Shown here: piece by piece, positions 1,730-21,698 of the stretch | Layout of the letters: every line of letters begins with the position of its first letter | How positions within the stretch are numbered: the stretch's first letter is position 1 | Origin: an uncultured Spirochaetales bacterium | GTDB taxonomy: Bacteria > Spirochaetota > Spirochaetia > Sphaerochaetales > Sphaerochaetaceae | Length of the DNA stretch: 35,276 bases | Assembly: GCA_949282255.1 (NCBI GenBank) | Contig: CASDPA010000021.1 | Location: 1 to 35,276, forward strand | Direction of reading: 5' to 3' | The notes under the pieces: generated by a model | Seen by the model: the letters and a program-made list of their open reading frames with translations, nothing else | The model's database searches: none | Told to the model about the DNA's origin: nothing | Program-made: the position numbers and the translations under genes

Positions 1730-3238
1730 TCACAACAGGGATTTGAATTTATTTGCCAGATACCTGGTATAAGGCTGGGCATCCAACGCACTCCCCGTCA
1801 CCTGTAATAATAAATCCTTTGGAAGATATATTCCACCTTTATGCCATATATTCACATCCTGCCATTTCAGGATCTCTCCATAATCCCCATTTTCAAGCAG
1901 GTTTTCAACCCTCTCTTCTCCACCAAGATCATCGAGCATCCTGAAATAAAACTGCGCAGCATATATGTTGCCAAGAGCATATGAAGGGAAATATCCAAAC
2001 ATTCCGCCCGCCCAATGCGAATCCTGCAGGCATCCTTCCGAATCAGAAAGAGGAGTATATCCCACTATCTTGCGGCTCATTTCATTCCAAGCTTCAGGAA
2101 CCTCAGAAACAGGAAGGCTTCCATTTATGAGCATTTTCTCTATCCTATAGCGAAGAATTATATGCAAAGAATATGTCAATTCATCTGCATTAACACGGAT
2201 GGCGGAGGGATAAGCCTTATTGATCGCACGATAAAAATCCTTCAGCCCCACATTTGCAAGGTTCGGAATATATTGCTGCAAACGGGGATACCAGTATTTC
2301 CAAAAAGCAAGGCTGCGCCCCATGAAATTCTCCCAGAATCTTGACTGGCTCTCATGGATGCCCATTGAAACACCTCCAGAAAGGCATGTAGCCCTTATAT
2401 CCGGATTAAGAGAAGATTTCTGCTCATAAAGGGCATGCCCCGTCTCATGCACCTGGCTTCCGATTGGATCAAAAAGGCCCGCATCGGTAAATCGGTTTGT
2501 TATGCGCACATCATCAGGGCCAAGAGTGGTGGTAAATGGATGTGCAGAAATACCAAAGCCACCTCGGGATGTATCAAAACCCATGGCAAGAGATACCTGA
2601 GTGCAAAATTCTTCAAGAGCCTTTTTATCATAAGGCTGGAAAAGGAAAGAATCATCAATGGCTTTCAAACAGGGAACAACCTCATTTATGAGCAAATGGA
2701 TTTCATTTTCCAGATTCTCAAAAAGGGGATCCAAGTCATCAATGCCGATATCAGGCTCATAAAAATCCAACAGAACGTCATAGGGGCTTTTATTACCATC
2801 GCATGAACAAGCGATATCACGTTCCACCGACACGATATCAGCAAGATAGGGAGCAAAAATGGAGAAATCTGAAGCGCTTTTCGCTTCCAGCCATTTCGTA
2901 TGGGCACGCCCTGTCAGACCGCTCTTCCTTTTTATCAGTGATGACGGAATCCGAACCTCCCTGTCCACCTTCTTCCTATAATTTCTGATAAGCCCATTAA
3001 CCCAATCCGGATATGAAGAATTCTCCGTAAGGGAAGATGCCAAATCGACAAGGCGTGGATCTACAGACTTTTCATGAATGATGACCGATAGGGCCTCCAT
3101 CTGTTCAGATCTACCCTCAGAAGCACCGGAGGGCATCTTTGTCTCAAGATCCCATTCCAAAACAGCCAAGGCATAAGAAAGGACCTGAAGCGCCCTATCT
3201 TCATCCAAAAGCTGTGCAATCAGGTCCTTTTTTGTCAT
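1730..3238 (-). CDS. Carboxypeptidase Taq (M32) family metallopeptidase
   Basis: A cytoplasmic zinc carboxypeptidase that trims C-terminal residues from peptides, with broad specificity in family M32. At 502 aa it matches the family length. The zinc site is visible as HETGH at residues 264-268, with the third ligand Glu in HESQSR (E296). The start ATG overlaps the thrS stop by one base (TGATG), so the two genes are translationally coupled and both fall under the thrS T-box. Recycling amino acids from peptides while threonine is short would be a sensible pairing, but that is inference. No signal peptide is seen. Confidence 0.93.
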   Translation of the reverse strand: MTKKDLIAQLLDEDRALQVLSYALAVLEWDLETKMPSGASEGRSEQMEALSVIIHEKSVDPRLVDLASSLTENSSYPDWVNGLIRNYRKKVDREVRIPSSLIKRKSGLTGRAHTKWLEAKSASDFSIFAPYLADIVSVERDIACSCDGNKSPYDVLLDFYEPDIGIDDLDPLFENLENEIHLLINEVVPCLKAIDDSFLFQPYDKKALEEFCTQVSLAMGFDTSRGGFGISAHPFTTTLGPDDVRITNRFTDAGLFDPIGSQVHETGHALYEQKSSLNPDIRATCLSGGVSMGIHESQSRFWENFMGRSLAFWKYWYPRLQQYIPNLANVGLKDFYRAINKAYPSAIRVNADELTYSLHIILRYRIEKMLINGSLPVSEVPEAWNEMSRKIVGYTPLSDSEGCLQDSHWAGGMFGYFPSYALGNIYAAQFYFRMLDDLGGEERVENLLENGDYGEILKWQDVNIWHKGGIYLPKDLLLQVTGSALDAQPYTRYLANKFKSLL

Positions 3239-4974
3239 CAGAGCTGCTCCTTTGAATCTATCTTAGCCTTCAGTGCCGAAGCAAAGGTTTCATAGGTTAG
3301 CCCGTTATCCTGCTTGCCGTTGCGGTAGCGTACGGATACCGTACCATTCTCCTTCTCCTTATCCCCTACAATCAGCATATAAGGTATCTTCAGCTGCTGC
3401 GCCTTGCGGATCTTCGCATTCATCCTGTCATTGGAAAGATCACTCTTAGCCCTGAAGCCATCCTGGCGGAGTTTTCTTTCAAGCTCACATGCATAATCAT
3501 TTGCACTTTCAGCAACAGGAATGACTGCAACTTGATCCGGGCTGAGCCAGGGTGGGAACGCTCCTGCATAATGCTCTATGAGGACACCAAAGAAACGTTC
3601 GATGGACCCAAGCAAAGCCCTATGTATCATATACGGCCTCTTTTCAGTACCATCCTTATCGACAAAGGTGAGTTTGAATCTTTCAGGAAGATTGAAATCG
3701 AACTGCACTGTGGAAAGCTGCCACTCACGTCCGATAGCATCCTTTATCTTCAAATCAATCTTCGGCCCATAGAAAGCACCGCCGCCTTCATCGACATCAT
3801 ACGAAATGCCCTCCTTCTCCACCGCTCTCTTCAAAGCCTCGGTTGCAGCATCCCATTTCTCCTGTTCGCCAACACTCTTTTCAGGCTTGGTGGAGATATA
3901 GGCATGGATATCATTGAAGCCAAAGGAATGGAGCATATACAGCGAGAATCTGAGAACCTCCATGATCTCGGCATCCATCTGATCGGGAGTACAGAAGATA
4001 TGGGCATCATCCTGAGTGAATCCTCTCACCCTCATGAGTCCATGAAGCGCACCTGCCTTCTCATACCTGTATACGGTACCGAGTTCAGCCCAGCGGCAGG
4101 GAAGATCACGATAGCTCTTCTTGCTGTTCTGATAAATCATGATATGGAACGGGCAATTCATCGGTTTCACGTAGTAATCCATATTGTCCATTTCCATTTT
4201 TGGATACATCGATTCCTTATAAAAACCAAGGTGACCACTGGTCTCCCAAAGCCATGACTTTCCGACGTGTGGGGTATAGATCATCTCATAGCCGTTCTTA
4301 TAATGCTCTTCACGCCAGAAATTCTCTATTGCCTGACGGATACGTGCTCCCCTAGGATGCCAATAAACAAGTCCCGGGCCTGCTTCTTCATGGAGGGAGA
4401 AGAGATCCAATTCCTTTCCAAGCTTTCTATGGTCCCTCTTCTCGATATCAGCAAGATGATCGAGATAAAGTCTCAGATCCTTAGGATTAAGCCAGGCTGT
4501 TCCATAAATTCTCTGAAGCATCGGATTGGTTTCCTTGCCGCGCCAATATGCGCCGGCTACAGAGAGAAGCTTAAATGCTTCAGGATTAAGCTCCTTGGTG
4601 GATTCCACATGTGGTCCACGGCAAAGATCCGTAAATCCCCCCTGATTGTAAATGGATATCTCGCTTCCTTCTTCAATTGCATCGATGAGTTCAAGCTTAT
4701 ACTTCTGGTCCTTGAACATTTTCTTGGCTTCTTCACGGGTAATAACGGATCTCTTAAATTCCTTATTACTCTTGATTATTGCCTTCATCCTTTCGGTGAT
4801 ATCTTCCAAATCCTGTTCGTTCAAACTTCTCGGAAGATCGAAATCATAATAAAATCCATTGTCGATCGCAGGTCCGATCGCAATCTGTGCATCAGGGAAA
4901 ATCTCGAGTACGGCTTCTGCCATAACATGCGCCATCGAATGTCTGATTTTCTCCAATTTCGCTTCATCAGCCAT
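3238..4974 (-). CDS. thrS: Threonyl-tRNA synthetase lacking the N-terminal TGS domain
   Basis: This class II synthetase charges tRNA-Thr and hydrolyses mischarged Ser-tRNA-Thr. The protein has 578 aa against about 640 in E. coli. It opens directly in the editing (SAD) domain, with the metal-site residues H12, H16, C118 and H122, so the usual TGS domain is absent; short ThrRS forms of this kind are known in spirochaetes. The catalytic core follows with the zinc Cys in MNCPFH, motif 2 around YRYEKAG and motif 3 around PYMIHRA, then a C-terminal anticodon-binding domain. The start at 4974 has AGGAGG eight bases upstream. Expression should depend on the T-box leader directly upstream. It is first in the thrS-M32-pgsA-HAD operon. 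Confidence 0.97.
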   Translation of the reverse strand: MADEAKLEKIRHSMAHVMAEAVLEIFPDAQIAIGPAIDNGFYYDFDLPRSLNEQDLEDITERMKAIIKSNKEFKRSVITREEAKKMFKDQKYKLELIDAIEEGSEISIYNQGGFTDLCRGPHVESTKELNPEAFKLLSVAGAYWRGKETNPMLQRIYGTAWLNPKDLRLYLDHLADIEKRDHRKLGKELDLFSLHEEAGPGLVYWHPRGARIRQAIENFWREEHYKNGYEMIYTPHVGKSWLWETSGHLGFYKESMYPKMEMDNMDYYVKPMNCPFHIMIYQNSKKSYRDLPCRWAELGTVYRYEKAGALHGLMRVRGFTQDDAHIFCTPDQMDAEIMEVLRFSLYMLHSFGFNDIHAYISTKPEKSVGEQEKWDAATEALKRAVEKEGISYDVDEGGGAFYGPKIDLKIKDAIGREWQLSTVQFDFNLPERFKLTFVDKDGTEKRPYMIHRALLGSIERFFGVLIEHYAGAFPPWLSPDQVAVIPVAESANDYACELERKLRQDGFRAKSDLSNDRMNAKIRKAQQLKIPYMLIVGDKEKENGTVSVRYRNGKQDNGLTYETFASALKAKIDSKEQL

Positions 4975-4980
4975 GATACA

Positions 4981-5256
4981 TTCCTCCTAAAATGGAAAAA
5001 GCCTTTCCAGCTTCATCCATGCATTATTGCAAGGACGAAACTGCAAAGGCTTTTGCAATTCCGCGGTCCCACCTTGCTTCCTTCCCAAAAGGAAAGACGC
5101 TCTAAACACTTACGTAGTTGTACGGCAGGATATACTTGTTTCCTTTCCATCCTGCAGCTCGGGAGTGGTTTTCATATCTTGGCTCCGGATATCTTGCTTC
5201 CTAGGATATCCTCTCAGGGGCAGCATGGGATATTACTCGTCTCCGTCATTGCCGTT
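4981..5256 (-). promoter_or_regulatory. T-box riboswitch (threonine, ACC specifier) controlling thrS
   Basis: Read on the minus strand, the leader has the hallmarks of a T-box. The conserved T-box sequence AAGGTGGGACCGCGG is at 5075-5061. A specifier ACC followed by A sits at 5169-5167, upstream of a GAGCTGC element, as in Stem I of known T-boxes; ACC encodes Thr, matching the gene. A GAGAGG element lies near the Stem I base. A 6-bp hairpin (CTTTCC/GGGAAG) just before the T-box fits Stem III. The antiterminator can form by pairing GCAAGG (5077-5072) with CCTTTGC (5049-5043), whose bases are also needed by the terminator at 4997-5054. Uncharged tRNA-Thr(GGU) would therefore allow readthrough into thrS. 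Stem I overlaps the last codons of msrC. Confidence 0.93.
4997..5054 (-). terminator. T-box-linked intrinsic terminator
   Basis: A 22-bp stem with a single G-G mismatch and two G-U pairs. The outer arms are AAAAGCCTTT and AAAGGCTTTT, the inner arms AGTTTCGTCC and GGATGAAGCT, and the loop can fold further (TGCA/TGCA). A T run follows. Part of the 5' arm (CCTTTGC) is shared with the antiterminator, which makes the two structures mutually exclusive. The TTTCGTCC element matches the conserved segment found downstream of the T-box motif in many leaders. Confidence 0.88.
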
Positions 5257-5775
5257 AGCTAAAGGATAACCATAAACCGGATTTTGTGCAACAATGAGTT
5301 TGGCAATCCTCTCCACGAGTGCCGAATCATCCTCTTTAAACCTTTTCAAGGATGGGCTGTCGATATCGATCACACCAAAAAGCCGACCATCATTTAAAAC
5401 CATAGGGACTACCATCTCACTTCTGCTGGCGGACGAGCAGGCGATATGCCCTTTGAAAGACGATACATCATCCACTATGATAGTACGCCTTTCCTTTGCA
5501 GCTGTTCCACATACCCCGCGGCCAAGCCTTATGAGTCCACAAGCTGGCTCCCCCATAAACGGTCCAAGGAATAAAACTGAAGCAGACTCATCAAATATGT
5601 AAAAGCCTGCCCAGTTGATATCATCCATGTACCACCATAGAAGAGATGCGATATTTGCAAGAACACCAGGTGTCACAAAAGGAGAAGACATGTCCTCCAA
5701 ATAACAGGATGCAAGCTCGATAAAAAGCTTTAAATCCTCTTTTGCATCACCGGTACGCTCGAAAGGCCGAAACAT
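5233..5775 (-). CDS. msrC: Free methionine-(R)-sulfoxide reductase, GAF domain (fRMsr)
   Basis: A cytoplasmic GAF-domain enzyme that reduces free L-methionine-(R)-sulfoxide to methionine using thioredoxin. The three family cysteines are present at C79 (EPAC), C89 (GVCG) and C113 (HIAC), with the typical contexts NWAGFY, LGPFMG and GVIDIDSP. Length is 180 aa. The open frame extends 49 codons further upstream, but that part lies inside the hydrogenase gene; the ATG at 5775 overlaps the hydrogenase stop as TGATG and gives the normal family length. It is the last gene of the hydrogenase operon, suggesting repair of oxidative damage alongside an oxygen-sensitive enzyme (inference). Confidence 0.93.
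   Translation of the reverse strand: MFRPFERTGDAKEDLKLFIELASCYLEDMSSPFVTPGVLANIASLLWWYMDDINWAGFYIFDESASVLFLGPFMGEPACGLIRLGRGVCGTAAKERRTIIVDDVSSFKGHIACSSASRSEMVVPMVLNDGRLFGVIDIDSPSLKRFKEDDSALVERIAKLIVAQNPVYGYPLANGNDGDE
5263..5291 (-). promoter_or_regulatory. Candidate promoter for the thrS T-box leader, inside msrC
   Basis: Minus-strand TTGCAC (5291-5286) and TATCCT (5268-5263) are 17 bases apart. Initiation would fall near 5256, just where Stem I of the T-box must begin. Both hexamers match the consensus at only about four of six positions. Readthrough from the hydrogenase operon is an alternative source of leader RNA. Confidence 0.35.
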
Positions 5776-10893: not shown

Positions 10894-11553
10894 TTAAACG
10901 AGTTCATCGTCGGATTCTGCCCCTTCCTGCTCAGCTATTTTCCTTCCGAGCTTTACCGACAGAACCGCAAAGCTTGTAGCCAAATCAGTCCTTTGTACGA
11001 CAACTGAAGGCGGAACCTTGATATCTTTAGGAGCAAAATTCCAAATTCCCCGGATTCCACAGCCGACAAGCAGGTCGGCAACCGCTTGAGCGCTCACTGC
11101 GGGGACGGTTATTACTGCGATGCTTATCCTCTTTTCAGCTATGAACGCATTGATCGAATCAATCGGCAGGACTTCAAAGCGTCCGATACGGCTGCCTATT
11201 TTTGCAGGATCCTTATCAAAAAGAGCGACAATCTTCAAGCCGTATGCCTCAAATCCATCATAACGGGCTATGGCCGAGCCAAGACTGCCTGCTCCTACTA
11301 TGAGAGCATCGGAGGTATTGTCCCAACCCAATATATGCACGATGAGATGTATAAGCTCATCAATACAAAACCCAACCTTTGGCTTTCCTTCTATTCCGGT
11401 TGAGGAAATATCCTTCCTCACCTGGATGGGATTAAGATCCAGTTCCTCTGCAAGAGTCGTTGCACTTATATATTTTTTCCCGCCATCCTTGGCCTGCTTA
11501 AGAATCCTGAGATACGAAGGAAATCTTTTTACCGTAGGTATTGGAATAGTCAT
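10894..11553 (-). CDS. rex: Redox-sensing transcriptional repressor Rex
   Basis: A 219-aa dimeric repressor that binds DNA when NADH is low and releases it when NADH rises. Residues 1-80 form the winged-helix DNA-binding domain, with the family-typical NPIQVRKDISSTG recognition region. A Rossmann domain follows with the dinucleotide-binding VGAGSLGSA (about 103-111) and a C-terminal helix for domain swapping. It overlaps ispH by four bases and lies directly upstream of the hydrogenase operon. Rex regulates hydrogenase and fermentation genes in many anaerobes, so the downstream operon is its probable target. Confidence 0.95.
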   Translation of the reverse strand: MTIPIPTVKRFPSYLRILKQAKDGGKKYISATTLAEELDLNPIQVRKDISSTGIEGKPKVGFCIDELIHLIVHILGWDNTSDALIVGAGSLGSAIARYDGFEAYGLKIVALFDKDPAKIGSRIGRFEVLPIDSINAFIAEKRISIAVITVPAVSAQAVADLLVGCGIRGIWNFAPKDIKVPPSVVVQRTDLATSFAVLSVKLGRKIAEQEGAESDDELV

Positions 11554-12380
11554 AACTGCAACAACCTCCTCTCAACTTCTTCAATCACGTTATCCGGAGT
11601 GCTGGATCCCGCGCTCAAGCCCACCGTCTGATAACCTTTCAACATATTTTCGTCCAAATCCAAAGGATTTTCAACCAAAATGGCCTTTTTACCATAACGG
11701 CGGGCCTCTGCGACCAAAGCATTGGAATTGGCGCTCATCTTATCCCCCACCACGATTATGAAATCGACAAGGCTGGAAAGATGGCGGATGGAGTCTCTCC
11801 TGAGCTCGCTTGCCCTGCAAACGCTGTTTCCTTGGATGAACCTGATACCCAACTCATCCATTTTGGCCAAAATGGCTTCAAGCTTTTCAGTTTCAAACGT
11901 CGTTTGCACGATGGCCCTGTATACTTTACTGTTATCCAGTCCCTCAAGATCGGAAGGGCTTTCAACAAGATGATAAGGCCTCTTTGCAACACCTTCGACA
12001 GCAATGGTCTCGCTGTGTCCCTTGATGCCTATCAATATCACGTCAAGAGCACTCTCTCTCATGTTCCTTTGGTTGCGGAGGACCAAAGGACAAGTGGCAT
12101 CGACAAGGTGGACGCCTTTTTTTTCAAAATCCGCGCGATCCTTGTCGGAAATGCCATGCGCCCTTATCAAGACAACATCTCCGGCACCGGGGATCGTTGT
12201 ATCGAATATCGTTTTCATCCCCAGGCCTTCAATATGCTCCATGACAATCTTATTATGAGCAAGATTGCCATAGACATACATCGTAGATCCGGAATTTTCG
12301 CTTGCAACCTTCTCTGCAAGCCTTATTGCATTACGGACTCCGGAGCAGAATCCCATATCCTTTGCTTTGATAACTTTCAT
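11550..12380 (-). CDS. ispH: 4-hydroxy-3-methylbut-2-enyl diphosphate reductase
   Basis: An iron-sulfur enzyme of the MEP pathway that makes IPP and DMAPP from HMBPP. The three cluster cysteines are C12 (GFCSG), C97 (DATCP) and C188 (NSVC). Conserved substrate residues also appear in AHGIS, GHSE and VQTTFE. At 276 aa it is the short bacterial form without an added S1 domain. The ATG overlaps the secF stop as TGATG, and the gene overlaps rex downstream, so isoprenoid, secretion and redox-control genes are in one transcript. Confidence 0.95.
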   Translation of the reverse strand: MKVIKAKDMGFCSGVRNAIRLAEKVASENSGSTMYVYGNLAHNKIVMEHIEGLGMKTIFDTTIPGAGDVVLIRAHGISDKDRADFEKKGVHLVDATCPLVLRNQRNMRESALDVILIGIKGHSETIAVEGVAKRPYHLVESPSDLEGLDNSKVYRAIVQTTFETEKLEAILAKMDELGIRFIQGNSVCRASELRRDSIRHLSSLVDFIIVVGDKMSANSNALVAEARRYGKKAILVENPLDLDENMLKGYQTVGLSAGSSTPDNVIEEVERRLLQL

Positions 12381-17676: not shown

Positions 17677-18495
17677 TTACAAAGCGAAAGATAAGCAAAA
17701 GGCCAGAGCGCAGGCAAAAAGACCGGAAAGAAAATTCACCATGTCATTTGTTATGAAAGGAATTCCCCTTGCCCTTTCATTCTCCATGCCGTCAGTAACC
17801 CTATGCTCGGTAAGCGAACCGTCCCTGCGTCTGTAATGCACCTGCACAGTAGCGCCCAAAACCGAATCAAAGAGAGCTCCGAGAATCCCTGAAACAGTTA
17901 CGACTGCAAGGAAAGCAAAAGATACTTCATAAAAACCTACAAAAAGACAGGCCATCAAAAATGATGCGACAAGGCCTGAAAGTGTTCCGGCAAGACTCAC
18001 CCCTCCTGAAAGACCTTTCGGAACTTTTGTGAAGGTGATTATTGAGACAGGATCGTTTTTGGAAAGCATCCCCAGCTCCCCGCTCCAGGTATCGGCAACA
18101 GCTTCCGCCAAACCGGAAGCAAACATGCATAGCCCGGCTGCCGGATAAGGCGAGAACCTATACACCAGGAGGCCGATCACAGAAGGGATACTGTTGGCAA
18201 AAACCTGCAGGCAATCCCTTCTGCCTCCTTTTTTCTGTATCTTCATGATGCCCGGATGCTTGAAAAATTTTCCTATCACAGCAGAGGAAAGAAAAAAGAA
18301 CAGCATCATCAAAATGCCGGAAAGCCCTCCGATATAGATTATGATCGCACCGATCAAGACGGCAGAAGCTATACCCCCCACAGTCAACTGCCTCTTTTTC
18401 CATGCAAAGACAGCAACAGCAGAAAGCACCAGCGCTATTATGAGCAGACGCAAGGCTATGGAAGAGGAAAAAAAACAGGAATCAACATATCTCAT
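17677..18495 (-). CDS. DUF92 membrane protein, VTE6 (phytyl-phosphate kinase)-like
   Basis: A 272-aa polytopic membrane protein of the DUF92 family. Family features are QVFANSIPS, EAVADTWSGELG, PKGLSGGVSLAGT and the Asp in GALFDSVLGAT. In plants and cyanobacteria the family includes VTE6, which phosphorylates phytyl phosphate to phytyl diphosphate; the bacterial substrate is unknown. It overlaps by four bases the gene for a protein resembling VTE5 / dolichol kinase, the enzyme of the preceding step. An isoprenyl-alcohol salvage role is therefore attractive but inferred. Confidence 0.85.
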   Translation of the reverse strand: MRYVDSCFFSSSIALRLLIIALVLSAVAVFAWKKRQLTVGGIASAVLIGAIIIYIGGLSGILMMLFFFLSSAVIGKFFKHPGIMKIQKKGGRRDCLQVFANSIPSVIGLLVYRFSPYPAAGLCMFASGLAEAVADTWSGELGMLSKNDPVSIITFTKVPKGLSGGVSLAGTLSGLVASFLMACLFVGFYEVSFAFLAVVTVSGILGALFDSVLGATVQVHYRRRDGSLTEHRVTDGMENERARGIPFITNDMVNFLSGLFACALAFCLSFAL

Positions 18496-19139
18496 TTCAA
18501 AATACCCATGATCAATGCAGTAATAATAGGAACCGTTATATTATCAAACCCAAGAGGAGTGAAACTTTCAAGCACAGTGGCTATCAATGCAATAATGCTG
18601 ATCCAATACCAAGGACAGGGGGTAAAAAGAATCATGACAACCAGGGAGACGGCGAACATGGCGATGCTTCCTTCAAAACTCTTTTTTCCGCCGAAGGAAA
18701 CATATTTATGCTTTCCCCAGTATGTTCCGATCAAAGCGGCAAAACCGTCTCCGAAACCCATCATCAGGGTCGGAGCGATAACTGCATAAGAAGGAAGAAA
18801 ACCACGATACATCAGGCTCACCATCACAGCCAGACTCAAGGGATAATATATCAGACCATTATCACGCTTACGATTTCCCATCCCCAGATGGCTGGCAAGA
18901 CCTCCATAAACCGCTATGAAATTGATAATAATGAAAGATACCGGACCAACCATTGCCCAGACATAGCTGTCATACATATAAACAAGGATAAAAACCCATA
19001 GTGAAACCAGAATGTGTATGAACTTCCTAGCACCTTCAGCGCCAATATGGAAAACCTTATAAAAAGCAAAGGCAATCCCTATGACTACGAATATATATAC
19101 GAATGACCAGAATGTGGCCACCAGATTGACATCATTCAC
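18492..19139 (-). CDS. Phytol/dolichol-kinase-like (CDP-alcohol kinase fold) membrane protein
   Basis: A 215-aa polytopic membrane protein with the features of the SEC59 / VTE5 polyprenol-kinase family: ARKFIHI near the N-terminal third, GDGFAALIGTYWGKHK followed by KKSFEGSIAMF, and the late ES...DNITVP motif. Known members transfer phosphate from CTP (or another NTP) to dolichol or phytol. The open frame runs 56 codons further upstream, but those codons are an Arg-rich shadow of the Gly-rich end of the DUF2207 gene. The GTG at 19139 overlaps that stop as GTGA and fits the family length. Substrate unproven; phosphatidate cytidylyltransferase-like annotation is an alternative label. Confidence 0.8.
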   Translation of the reverse strand: MNDVNLVATFWSFVYIFVVIGIAFAFYKVFHIGAEGARKFIHILVSLWVFILVYMYDSYVWAMVGPVSFIIINFIAVYGGLASHLGMGNRKRDNGLIYYPLSLAVMVSLMYRGFLPSYAVIAPTLMMGFGDGFAALIGTYWGKHKYVSFGGKKSFEGSIAMFAVSLVVMILFTPCPWYWISIIALIATVLESFTPLGFDNITVPIITALIMGILK

Positions 19140-21010
19140 CAGCTCCTGCCTCCTCCACCGGAAAAGCCTCCGCCGGCAAAACCGGAAAAACCTCTTCCTC
19201 CGAATGAACCTCCCTTGAAACCTCCTCCACCAGGACGGCTGGAAGGTCTTATGGAAGAATATATATGGTTGTAATTTGAACGCCATGAGGTTGTGAACAT
19301 ATGCCAAAACATATAATCAACAATCAGATCGGATCCGGAATACCATGCAGGCATAAAGGCAGTCAGGCCCTTGAACTTTTTCACATAGTCATTCTCAAGG
19401 CCCAATGCAACTGCATAAGCTAGGTTATGATAAAAATAATCAGGATCCTCTTCTATCAGGACCTTGAGCTTATCCACCTCCACTTCCTTCAGAAACTCCC
19501 GGTATCCCAAAACCTCACAAAGTATGGAATATCCATAATCACTCCGTTTTCTGGTCGCATTCGATAAGAATGTTGCAGAAAAAGCGATAAGAGCCGAAGA
19601 CAACCCGGATAAGAACGCAAGAAGGATGCTGCCTGTGAGAATCAGGCCGGCAGCCATCGAGGATAAAAAGGTTATGCCCAACAGCAATATGGTCAAGAAT
19701 ATCCTGCCTGCACTCTTGAAATAAAGTCCTATGCCGCTTTCATGGGTTATATCCCGATAAAGGGCCATGAGAGCAAAGAGCACAATCAATTGGGGAACAA
19801 GCACGATAAAGGTGGCGGCTCCGATTTCCTTCATGGAAATAAGAAGAGCACCAGCTATCGAGAGAATAAAGCCCATAGCCAAAAGGAATGAAGCTCTGGA
19901 CCGGCTCCTTACATCCTCAAGAGGGTGATTAAGCTCATAATACCGCTCCATATCCGGTATTATCTTTTCTGTGAGCTTCTCTCTGAATCCGCTTTTCACC
20001 ACATCTGCGATGTCCACATCGTCACCACGGCTGAAAAAAACATCAAAAAGATTTCTTTCATAGTAAGGCCTATCGTCCGGCAAATCTTTCAGCTTTATAA
20101 AATGGTACTCTTCCTTACCCCGCTCCTCTATCCTCAAAAAGCCTTTGTCCGCCCAATAAAAAATCATGCTCAAAGCATCAGAATCAGCATCTACCTTGTT
20201 ATCAACTATATATCCGCAATCAAGGCTGGAAAGCCCTTCTGGGGGACAGAAGCGTACAGGATAAACCAATTCTTCGTCCTTGCCATACTTGATATACGAT
20301 TTGATTGCAAACAGAAAGAACAGCAAAGATAAGATGAAGCAGCCTATAATACCATATATTGAAAAATCCATCTTAGGCACAAAACTGTCAAAATACCCTT
20401 CTTCGAATTCGGCAAGGACGGTTACTGCAAAATATGGAGGAAGATTGGAAAGACGTCCTGAAACTGTTCTTCCATCCGAAGAAAGAGTATAGTCTATGTA
20501 TTTCTCCGACCCATAGGCTCCGACCGATACATGTACTTTCGATGGATCTACGGCATATGGAAAGCTTACTGAAAAGGTGAAATCTCTCACCACTGTATCC
20601 CATGCCGCGGACAATACATTGTAATACCATCTTTCAAAACCGCGCTGCTTCACCTCCGGAATCATAAAATCATAACTGATGTTATATTCAACAGGCCCCT
20701 GCACTATCCGATCGGGAGAGCCAAGCCTGAGAACCATATACCCGTTTTCATAGCTATATGAAGATTCAACGTCGGTCCTCACATTCTCTATGCCAGCCTT
20801 AAGGCCGATTCCGAAATCATATTGTATATCCCGGAAAAGGCCATGACTTGGAGAGGTGAAATCAATATCCAACCTTTCCTTTACATGACTCATAGCAGAA
20901 GCATCGACATCGATGGAAACATCATATTTATCCACGATAAACGTCTCTGCAGCAAAGAAAGGAAAAATGATAAAAACAAGAAGAAAGATGGAAAGCAGGA
21001 TCCTTTTCAT
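19136..21010 (-). CDS. DUF2207 family membrane protein with Gly-rich C-terminus
   Basis: A 624-aa protein with an N-terminal signal sequence (about 1-20), an extracytoplasmic beta-rich DUF2207 domain, a membrane segment at about 225-245, a cytoplasmic segment and two or more membrane segments at about 380-490. The tail is strongly enriched in Gly, Ser and Phe, ending GGGGRSW, as in other family members. The biochemical role is unknown. DUF2207 genes commonly sit beside lemA, as here, suggesting a joint membrane function. RBS is weak (AGG). Confidence 0.88.
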   Translation of the reverse strand: MKRILLSIFLLVFIIFPFFAAETFIVDKYDVSIDVDASAMSHVKERLDIDFTSPSHGLFRDIQYDFGIGLKAGIENVRTDVESSYSYENGYMVLRLGSPDRIVQGPVEYNISYDFMIPEVKQRGFERWYYNVLSAAWDTVVRDFTFSVSFPYAVDPSKVHVSVGAYGSEKYIDYTLSSDGRTVSGRLSNLPPYFAVTVLAEFEEGYFDSFVPKMDFSIYGIIGCFILSLLFFLFAIKSYIKYGKDEELVYPVRFCPPEGLSSLDCGYIVDNKVDADSDALSMIFYWADKGFLRIEERGKEEYHFIKLKDLPDDRPYYERNLFDVFFSRGDDVDIADVVKSGFREKLTEKIIPDMERYYELNHPLEDVRSRSRASFLLAMGFILSIAGALLISMKEIGAATFIVLVPQLIVLFALMALYRDITHESGIGLYFKSAGRIFLTILLLGITFLSSMAAGLILTGSILLAFLSGLSSALIAFSATFLSNATRKRSDYGYSILCEVLGYREFLKEVEVDKLKVLIEEDPDYFYHNLAYAVALGLENDYVKKFKGLTAFMPAWYSGSDLIVDYMFWHMFTTSWRSNYNHIYSSIRPSSRPGGGGFKGGSFGGRGFSGFAGGGFSGGGGRSW

Positions 21011-21024
21011 TGAAAAACCTGTTA

Positions 21025-21576
21025 TCAGAAGCTCACACGTACGTTCTGTTTTGCCTCATCTGCCACTTCGGCATATTCAAGCTTCTTAAAGCCGAACGGC
21101 CCTGCAAGCAGATTCGCAGGGAATACCATTATCTTGTCATTATAGGATCTGGCAACAGCATTGTAATATTTGCGTGCATTCAGGATTTCAGTTTCTACAG
21201 CATCCAACTGCTTCTGCAGGTCCATGAAATTGGCATTCGCTTTCAGATCCGGATAGCTCTCGCTCAATGCAAAGAGATTCTTAAGTGCCCCAGAAAGCAT
21301 ATCGTCGGCTTTCTGTCTGTCATTGATTCCATGTGCATCGATACACGCGTTTCTGGCTCTGATGACATTTTCCAAAGTGGACTTTTCATGTCCTGCATAC
21401 CCTTTCACAGTCTCAACAAGATTAGGAATGAGGTCATACCTTTTGTTCAAATGCGCATCTATGCCGCTTTCAGCCTCTTCAGCTTTGTTTTTCGCCTTTA
21501 CCATCGAATTGTATAGGGAAACAATCCAAATCAGGATAACCAGAATTATGGCTATGACAATTGCAGCTACGATCAT
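21025..21576 (-). CDS. lemA: LemA family membrane protein
   Basis: A 183-aa protein with an N-terminal membrane helix (about 3-22) followed by a long helical cytoplasmic or periplasmic domain. Family signatures are the YNSMVKAKNKAEEAESGID region, RYDLIPNLVETVKGYA and the ARKYYNAVARSYNDKI segment. The function is not established. I chose the ATG at 21576, which has AAGGAG six bases upstream; the open frame allows nine more codons. It heads the lemA-DUF2207-kinase-DUF92 operon, divergent from the nitroreductase gene. Confidence 0.92.
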   Translation of the reverse strand: MIVAAIVIAIILVILIWIVSLYNSMVKAKNKAEEAESGIDAHLNKRYDLIPNLVETVKGYAGHEKSTLENVIRARNACIDAHGINDRQKADDMLSGALKNLFALSESYPDLKANANFMDLQKQLDAVETEILNARKYYNAVARSYNDKIMVFPANLLAGPFGFKKLEYAEVADEAKQNVRVSF

Positions 21577-21698
21577 ATCATTCTCCTTCGCACAATATAA
21601 CATATTATCGAAGTAATTGCATTAACGGATGTTTTGCATGGCATCATGGCCTTCACCCACCCTTTTCTTTTCTGATACGATGAGTACGGGATACAGAT

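Follow-up and report, generated by a model that had tools for sequence, protein, structure and literature searches.

A linked pair of putative isoprenoid-alcohol kinase genes in a spirochaete family mostly devoid of a recognisable FPP/GGPP synthase

The window, i.e. the whole stretch of 35,276 nucleotides analysed here (contig CASDPA010000021.1 of assembly GCA_949282255.1, from an uncultured member of the Sphaerochaetaceae), carries two adjacent genes for integral membrane proteins, a VTE5/Sec59-like protein and a DUF92 protein, hereafter referred to as the pair [Table 1]. The initial annotation had described the two genes as overlapping, and its coordinates were borne out: both frames lie on the minus strand and share four bases, which suggests that the two genes are translationally coupled. 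The VTE5-like gene in turn begins within the last bases of the DUF2207 gene. The usual gene order in the family loci viewed was lemA, DUF2207, VTE5-like, DUF92, groL and yajC, with other genes sometimes interspersed in the lemA-yajC run and with secD and ispH nearby in some; lemA and the DUF2207 gene (19136-21603 in the window) were seen upstream of the pair in several genera of the family. Elsewhere in the window, a T-box leader lies just upstream of a threonyl-tRNA-synthetase-like gene; T-boxes are mostly known from Gram-positive bacteria.

Table 1 Features of the window discussed in the text.
Feature	Position	Strand	Remarks
VTE5/Sec59-like integral membrane protein, putative CTP-dependent prenol kinase (first step)	18492..19139	-	215 aa, GTG start
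DUF92 (PF01940, COG1836, VTE6-family) integral membrane protein, putative prenyl-phosphate kinase (second step)	17677..18495	-	272 aa
Stop/start overlap of the VTE5-like and DUF92 genes	18492..18495	-	4 bases; tight spacing in most relatives
DUF2207 membrane protein, upstream in the same run	19136..21010	-	PF09972/PF20990
LemA family protein, upstream in the conserved run	21025..21603	-	PF04011
IspH/LytB, last enzyme of the MEP pathway	11550..12380	-	PF02401, E 3.2e-68
T-box leader	5028..5258	-	RF00230, 100.4 bits
Threonyl-tRNA-synthetase-like gene	3238..4974		

The DUF92 protein matched PF01940 along profile positions 2-250 of 251 (197.8 bits, E 2.6e-58, cut-off 27.5) and scored 111.8 bits, below the cut-off of 205.85, against TIGR00297, the NCBIfam model of the same family. 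Seventeen positions were invariant in 27 DUF92 sequences, including D135, S163, G164, D210, S211, N250 and N254. Two conserved aspartates are given as a feature of the CTP-transferase superfamily in an earlier study (PMC5898192), and D135 and D210 would be these two residues in DUF92. The VTE5-like protein of the window matched no model of Pfam or NCBIfam, libraries that may contain no suitable one, and a scan of 26 relatives returned stray weak matches in single members and none to a VTE5, Sec59 or COG0170 family. Thirteen positions were invariant in these 26 sequences (R38, K39, H42, N73, G95, D131, G138, K153, G157, E191, D199, N200 and P204); the Asp of GDGxAA and that of DNxTVP, motifs taken here as a putative VTE5/Sec59 signature, were both invariant. 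The protein was named VTE5/Sec59-like because of these motifs, a moderate fold match and the published archaeal Sec59-like:DUF92 fusion, its membership of the VTE5 family being not proven by sequence. Putative catalytic residues are thus kept in both proteins, as the reading of the two as successive kinases in the initial annotation would have it. Sequence searches of the PDB returned no relatives. On plasmids, nothing resembled the VTE5-like protein, and a single stretch resembled DUF92; it lies in Thermomicrobium roseum, at a place that carries no annotated gene and has no annotated VTE5-like neighbour. Homology between the two partners was also considered and is unsupported (profile comparison probability 10%, E 0.003).

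AlphaFold2 models built from eleven sequences each were confident (pLDDT 87.1 for the VTE5-like and 83.1 for the DUF92 protein). When aligned to the PDB with VIA-align, both models had CdsA as the best of the folds listed (VTE5-like: Z 8.5, rmsd 5.0, 159 residues aligned, unrelated rows reaching 7.2; DUF92: Z 7.2, rmsd 4.3, 157 aligned, unrelated rows reaching 6.0), Z values at this level being attainable by chance for helical membrane folds. The second row for DUF92 (Z 6.9) was 5guf, presumably CarS, whose title names an enzyme that acts within the membrane on archaeal lipids. Foldseek also placed CdsA, a CDP-DAG synthetase, first for both models (E 0.09 for VTE5-like and 0.07 for DUF92) with low TM-scores. 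These matches agree, short of proof, with the CTP-transferase superfamily (CdsA fold), to which both proteins probably belong.

Each gene of the pair was found in 35 of the 36 genomes of the window's genus. Between the window and its nearest relative, the only comparison free of saturated synonymous sites, dN/dS was 0.082 for the VTE5-like gene and 0.069 for DUF92; more distant comparisons also gave low values where computable, but at saturated synonymous sites. Because of this near-constant presence and these ratios of 0.08 and 0.07, the gene pair is not a product of chance, and both genes are under purifying selection. Among 392 Spirochaetota genomes, 46 carried DUF92, namely 33 of the 36 from the window's family, 11 from elsewhere in the class and two from outside the class. 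The VTE5-like profile matched many more (264/392). Above 135 bits it gave 45 matches, which came from 44 genomes, every one of which also carried DUF92; the next score was 105. As proteins of the paired type had been used to make the profile, this gap arises partly by construction. Only the high-scoring type was seen in the 33 family members that had a VTE5-like match (twice in G380). All 11 DUF92-positive class genomes outside the family had at least two VTE5-like matches, and at least eight of them have a further copy of lower score. At four loci from outside the family (L156, L157, L159 and L160), the lower-scoring VTE5-like domain forms the C-terminal part of a protein of 411-459 aa whose N-terminus resembles a HAD phosphatase by sequence pattern; the L160 protein had no Pfam match at the threshold used.

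Linkage was scored at 67 DUF92 loci in 66 Spirochaetota genomes. The VTE5-like gene lay directly upstream on the same strand at 61 of them and was fused to DUF92 in one frame at five (G185, G247, G278, G335 and G416, the VTE5-like part of G278 being low-scoring); DUF92 stood alone at one, in G254, a genome with no VTE5-like match anywhere. Adjacency is therefore conserved, as the reading in the initial annotation requires. The pair is not a peculiarity of one bacterium, given the spread of DUF92 just described and a fusion already known in archaea. The 66 genomes were taken from the 70 found to carry DUF92 over both surveys, with G380 contributing two pairs; left out were G013, G018, G030 and G314, where by coordinates the two genes also adjoin and where, in G013 and G030, DUF92 runs over the contig end. 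G372 was scored as adjacent despite an interrupted DUF92 frame (L111), which was read as two pieces and reflects either assembly error or decay. The second pair of G380 (L109), located elsewhere in that genome, adjoins a gene whose 993-aa product resembles an ATPase by sequence pattern.

Outside the family, the pair showed a link to carotenoid genes. In G335 and G247, the fused gene adjoins crtB, which is preceded by a crtI-like gene; in G312, crtB is within three genes of the pair and a carotenoid-synthesis gene (PF04240) is likewise only a few genes off; and a crtI-like gene, crtB (within three genes) and one further gene run towards the pair in G051. Here crtB was called by PF00494 and crtI was named from sequence pattern, its Pfam match being to FAD amine oxidase. 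Across the 178 class genomes outside the family, DUF92 co-occurred with phytoene synthase (SQS_PSY; both/DUF92 only/SQS_PSY only/neither: 11/0/8/159, p 7e-13, or 10/1/8/159, p 7e-11, without a weak partial match in G387), such that the synthase was present in 10-11 of the 11 DUF92-positive genomes and in 8 of the 167 others, these eight having phytoene synthase without DUF92. Relatedness among spirochaete genomes makes these p-values overstate independence, and the genus-level test is fairer (11/0/5/45, p 1e-8; or 10/1/5/45, p 3e-7). A UbiA control gave a weaker association with DUF92 (9/2/43/124, p 3e-4; at the genus level 11/0/29/21, p 0.01). SQS_PSY was matched in 4 of 36 sampled family genomes and had no match in the DUF92-positive genomes from outside the class (G254 and G278). 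Phytoene synthase uses GGPP; the crtB linkage and the co-occurrence therefore point to GGPP as product. Carotenoid supply was rejected as the role of the pair in the window genome, where no SQS_PSY was found; neither SQS_PSY nor UbiA was found in it or in the other 15 genomes of the genus sampled (16 in all).

PF00348, the family of FPP/GGPP synthases, was absent from all 36 genomes of the genus, although 22 of 24 genomes from elsewhere in the class had it, as did 14 of 14 controls. A further search of 38 genomes detected it in all 13 DUF92-positive genomes outside the family and in seven family members. Over both searches, to both of which the window genome belongs, PF00348 was present in 7 and absent from 53 of 60 family genomes, the latter including G328, a single contig at 99% completeness. 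All seven PF00348-positive family members have a HepT-like enzyme as judged by tree and motif, and HepT was the best NCBIfam match, below cut-off, in the two of the seven tested. G310, G370, G399 and G401 have this type only; in G277, G372 and G424 it is accompanied by the type that prevails among other spirochaetes. In the loci viewed (G277, G310, G370 and G399), the HepT-like gene adjoins an NADH-dehydrogenase-like gene named from sequence pattern. Phytoene synthase is present in G310, G370 and G399, where the source of GGPP would have to be the HepT-like enzyme, the pair or some unrecognised enzyme. The seven PF00348-positive family members also keep the pair, which is hence older than the loss of PF00348 and did not arise to fill an FPP-synthase gap; the pre-existing pair may have made the loss tolerable.

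UppS, on the other hand, was found in 75 of the 78 genomes tested and is kept in 50 of the 53 PF00348-less family genomes, 48 of these 50 having both kinase genes. Its motifs were kept in 25 aligned sequences, of which 12 came from PF00348-less family genomes, with the exception of one FSTENW change in G291; a 26th sequence (G416) was not recovered. In the window genome, uppS is clustered with dxr and with genes resembling frr, cdsA and rseP, named from sequence pattern. In a profile check covering this genome, UppS was above its NCBIfam cut-off and Dxr was the best match of the other protein, at 291.2 bits against a cut-off of 315.7. Since Dxr and IspH are present, the cell can probably make IPP and DMAPP itself, but no trans-prenyl synthase was found. 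The one enzyme found in the window genome that would use a C15-C20 diphosphate is UppS. Two family genomes of 1.2 Mb (G364 and G371, genus g32) are without UppS, PF00348, VTE5-like and DUF92 genes together, as expected if the pair serves UppS. Their joint absence may mean that the polyprenyl carrier has been lost. Four genomes depart from the general pattern. G350 and G005, of the family, have UppS without PF00348 and without either kinase gene, and in G036 and G037, of the class, UppS is accompanied by a low-scoring VTE5-like protein, without PF00348 and with no DUF92 match in a one-protein search, as distinct from the family model. G005 (76% complete) and G036 (81%) are less complete than G350 (96%, 210 contigs) and G037 (91%, 440 contigs); the latter two are not easily dismissed and could be assembly gaps or true counter-examples. 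If they are real, another way to prime UppS exists.

From the observed gene structure, conservation, linkage, fusions and pattern of presence and absence, we infer a route of two successive activities. The VTE5-like protein would use CTP to phosphorylate an isoprenoid alcohol taken up by the cell, geranylgeraniol and farnesol being the likeliest substrates. Addition of a second phosphate by the DUF92 protein would yield GGPP or FPP. In carotenoid-forming spirochaetes, the pair would add to the GGPP pool drawn upon by phytoene synthase. In the window lineage, for which no trans-prenyl diphosphate synthase, phytoene synthase or UbiA enzyme was detected, the pair would provide, perhaps as the sole source, the allylic diphosphate that primes UppS. 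Extension of this primer with IPP, which the cell makes itself through the MEP pathway, would give the lipid carrier for wall synthesis, making the cell dependent on prenol salvage. A C15-C20 prenol converted to FPP or GGPP is favoured because of the carotenoid link and because the FPP/GGPP synthase is missing while UppS is kept. Plants are known to salvage prenols with two such kinases, one acting on the alcohol and the other on its monophosphate, and the same has been argued for bacteria (PMC9782597). The two kinase steps are modelled on the plant enzymes (PMC9782597, PMC10849223), and use of the product by UppS is deduced from gene content. We somewhat favour this account of two kinases making an allylic diphosphate from an imported prenol to prime UppS; an FPP synthase of another, unrecognised fold is a possible counterweight. 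Salvage by two successive isoprenoid-alcohol kinases, which the initial annotation had proposed, is thus the best-supported reading, whereas the substrates it had put forward, diet-derived phytol or polyprenols of cell-wall turnover, are less well supported: recycling of a long polyprenol would need the monophosphate only, and phytol is neither shown nor excluded.

The main rival holds that UppS starts directly on DMAPP or GPP, with no need of FPP, the pair being an accessory salvage route inherited from a carotenoid-forming ancestor. The four genomes with UppS but neither PF00348 nor DUF92 fit such priming, as does the presence of the pair in PF00348-keeping family members, which places it before the loss. 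An accessory route should however tend to decay; the pair is kept in 48 of 50 UppS-positive, PF00348-negative family genomes and is under purifying selection, although phytoene synthase was found in 0/16 genomes of the genus sampled. We regard this rival as unlikely.

An improbable alternative casts the VTE5-like protein as an undecaprenol kinase, which would convert the C55 alcohol back into the carrier monophosphate, with DUF92 modifying or regulating it. A DgkA-type kinase (PF01219) was detected in 0 of the 36 genus genomes, which speaks against recycling by a DgkA homologue there and for this alternative. The lower-scoring VTE5-like protein common in the class was not seen in the family, where only the paired form occurs, and the latter could have assumed its role. 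Yet the wall lipid carrier is used as the monophosphate, and the conserved second kinase, linked or fused to the first, and the crtB link point to a diphosphate product. Quite improbable, too, is the salvage of dietary phytol to phytyl diphosphate as by plant VTE5 and VTE6, suggested by the family resemblance of DUF92 and by a relative, Candidatus Ornithospirochaeta stercorigallinarum, whose name points to chicken faeces. The users of phytyl diphosphate known to us need UbiA-type enzymes, and none was found in the window genome, which disfavours a path from phytol to a quinone or tocopherol there; phytoene synthase, moreover, takes GGPP. Both members of the pair are also present in G256, taken as Salinispira pacifica, a saline-mat spirochaete reported to make carotenoids from GGPP and to be without lipoquinones (PMC4511686). 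A cytidylyltransferase role instead of a kinase role for one or both proteins, with a CDP-lipid as product as in the case of CdsA or CarS, is hardly credible despite CdsA being the top structural match of both models and 5guf a further match of DUF92, as a separate cdsA-like gene (sequence pattern) lies beside uppS in the window genome and the characterised plant members are kinases (PMC9782597, PMC10849223).

The proposed salvage route follows the same two-step logic as VTE5 (phytol kinase) and VTE6 (phytyl-phosphate kinase; COG1836/PF01940, the family of DUF92) in plants and cyanobacteria, from which it differs in that the genes are adjacent, or fused in relatives, that no UbiA-type enzyme was found in the window genome and that the product is probably GGPP or FPP. 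In archaea, the same domain pair occurs fused, as in Sec59-like:DUF92 proteins such as Mbar_A3310, and arCOG02245 (DUF92), which is linked to uppS there, has been suggested to carry out a kinase step in the making of isoprenoids (PMC5898192); the spirochaete pair, in contrast, is bacterial, lies near crtB or in a lemA-DUF2207 run, and is found with the FPP/GGPP synthase missing. Plasmodium PolK, which was found with VTE5/FolK seeds and is needed for prenol use under MEP block, is a prenol kinase like the VTE5-like protein in its proposed role, but is eukaryotic and about 20% identical to plant VTE5 (PMC10849223).

To our knowledge, FPP synthase is generally regarded as indispensable for walled bacteria. 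The exception known from the cited literature is intracellular Rickettsia, whereas the spirochaete clade is not known as intracellular. Rickettsia lacks IspA, keeps IspU and IspB and is reported as a probable importer of host FPP (PMC5615194, PMC6854040). The same enzyme is thus missing, and the same UppS retained, as in the window lineage; unlike Rickettsia, which is without the MEP pathway, the window genome has Dxr, IspH and a candidate salvage kinase pair. Archaea are already known to have the pair, and plants to have the DUF92 family, so the window pair is a new bacterial example. What is new is that it coincides with the lack of an FPP/GGPP synthase in most members of a bacterial family. 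Searches of the open-licence literature returned no recognised report of the pair in spirochaetes or of FPP-synthase absence in the family; a report elsewhere in print is possible.

The pair and the missing synthase together make prenol dependency directly testable. If salvage replaced FPP synthase, a cross-feeding dependency would be revealed, members known from assemblies alone would have a growth supplement to try, and a bacterial setting would be at hand in which to test DUF92 as a prenyl-phosphate kinase. The clade probably lives in guts, judging in part from the name of one relative. It is possible, though less likely than not, that these spirochaetes are prenol auxotrophs without any FPP/GGPP synthase, whose wall carrier would be built through the pair on scavenged farnesol, geranylgeraniol or phytol. 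Were this so, the end of the bactoprenol chain would bear the signature of an alcohol scavenged from the diet or from neighbours, and prenol supply would limit both growth and cultivation.
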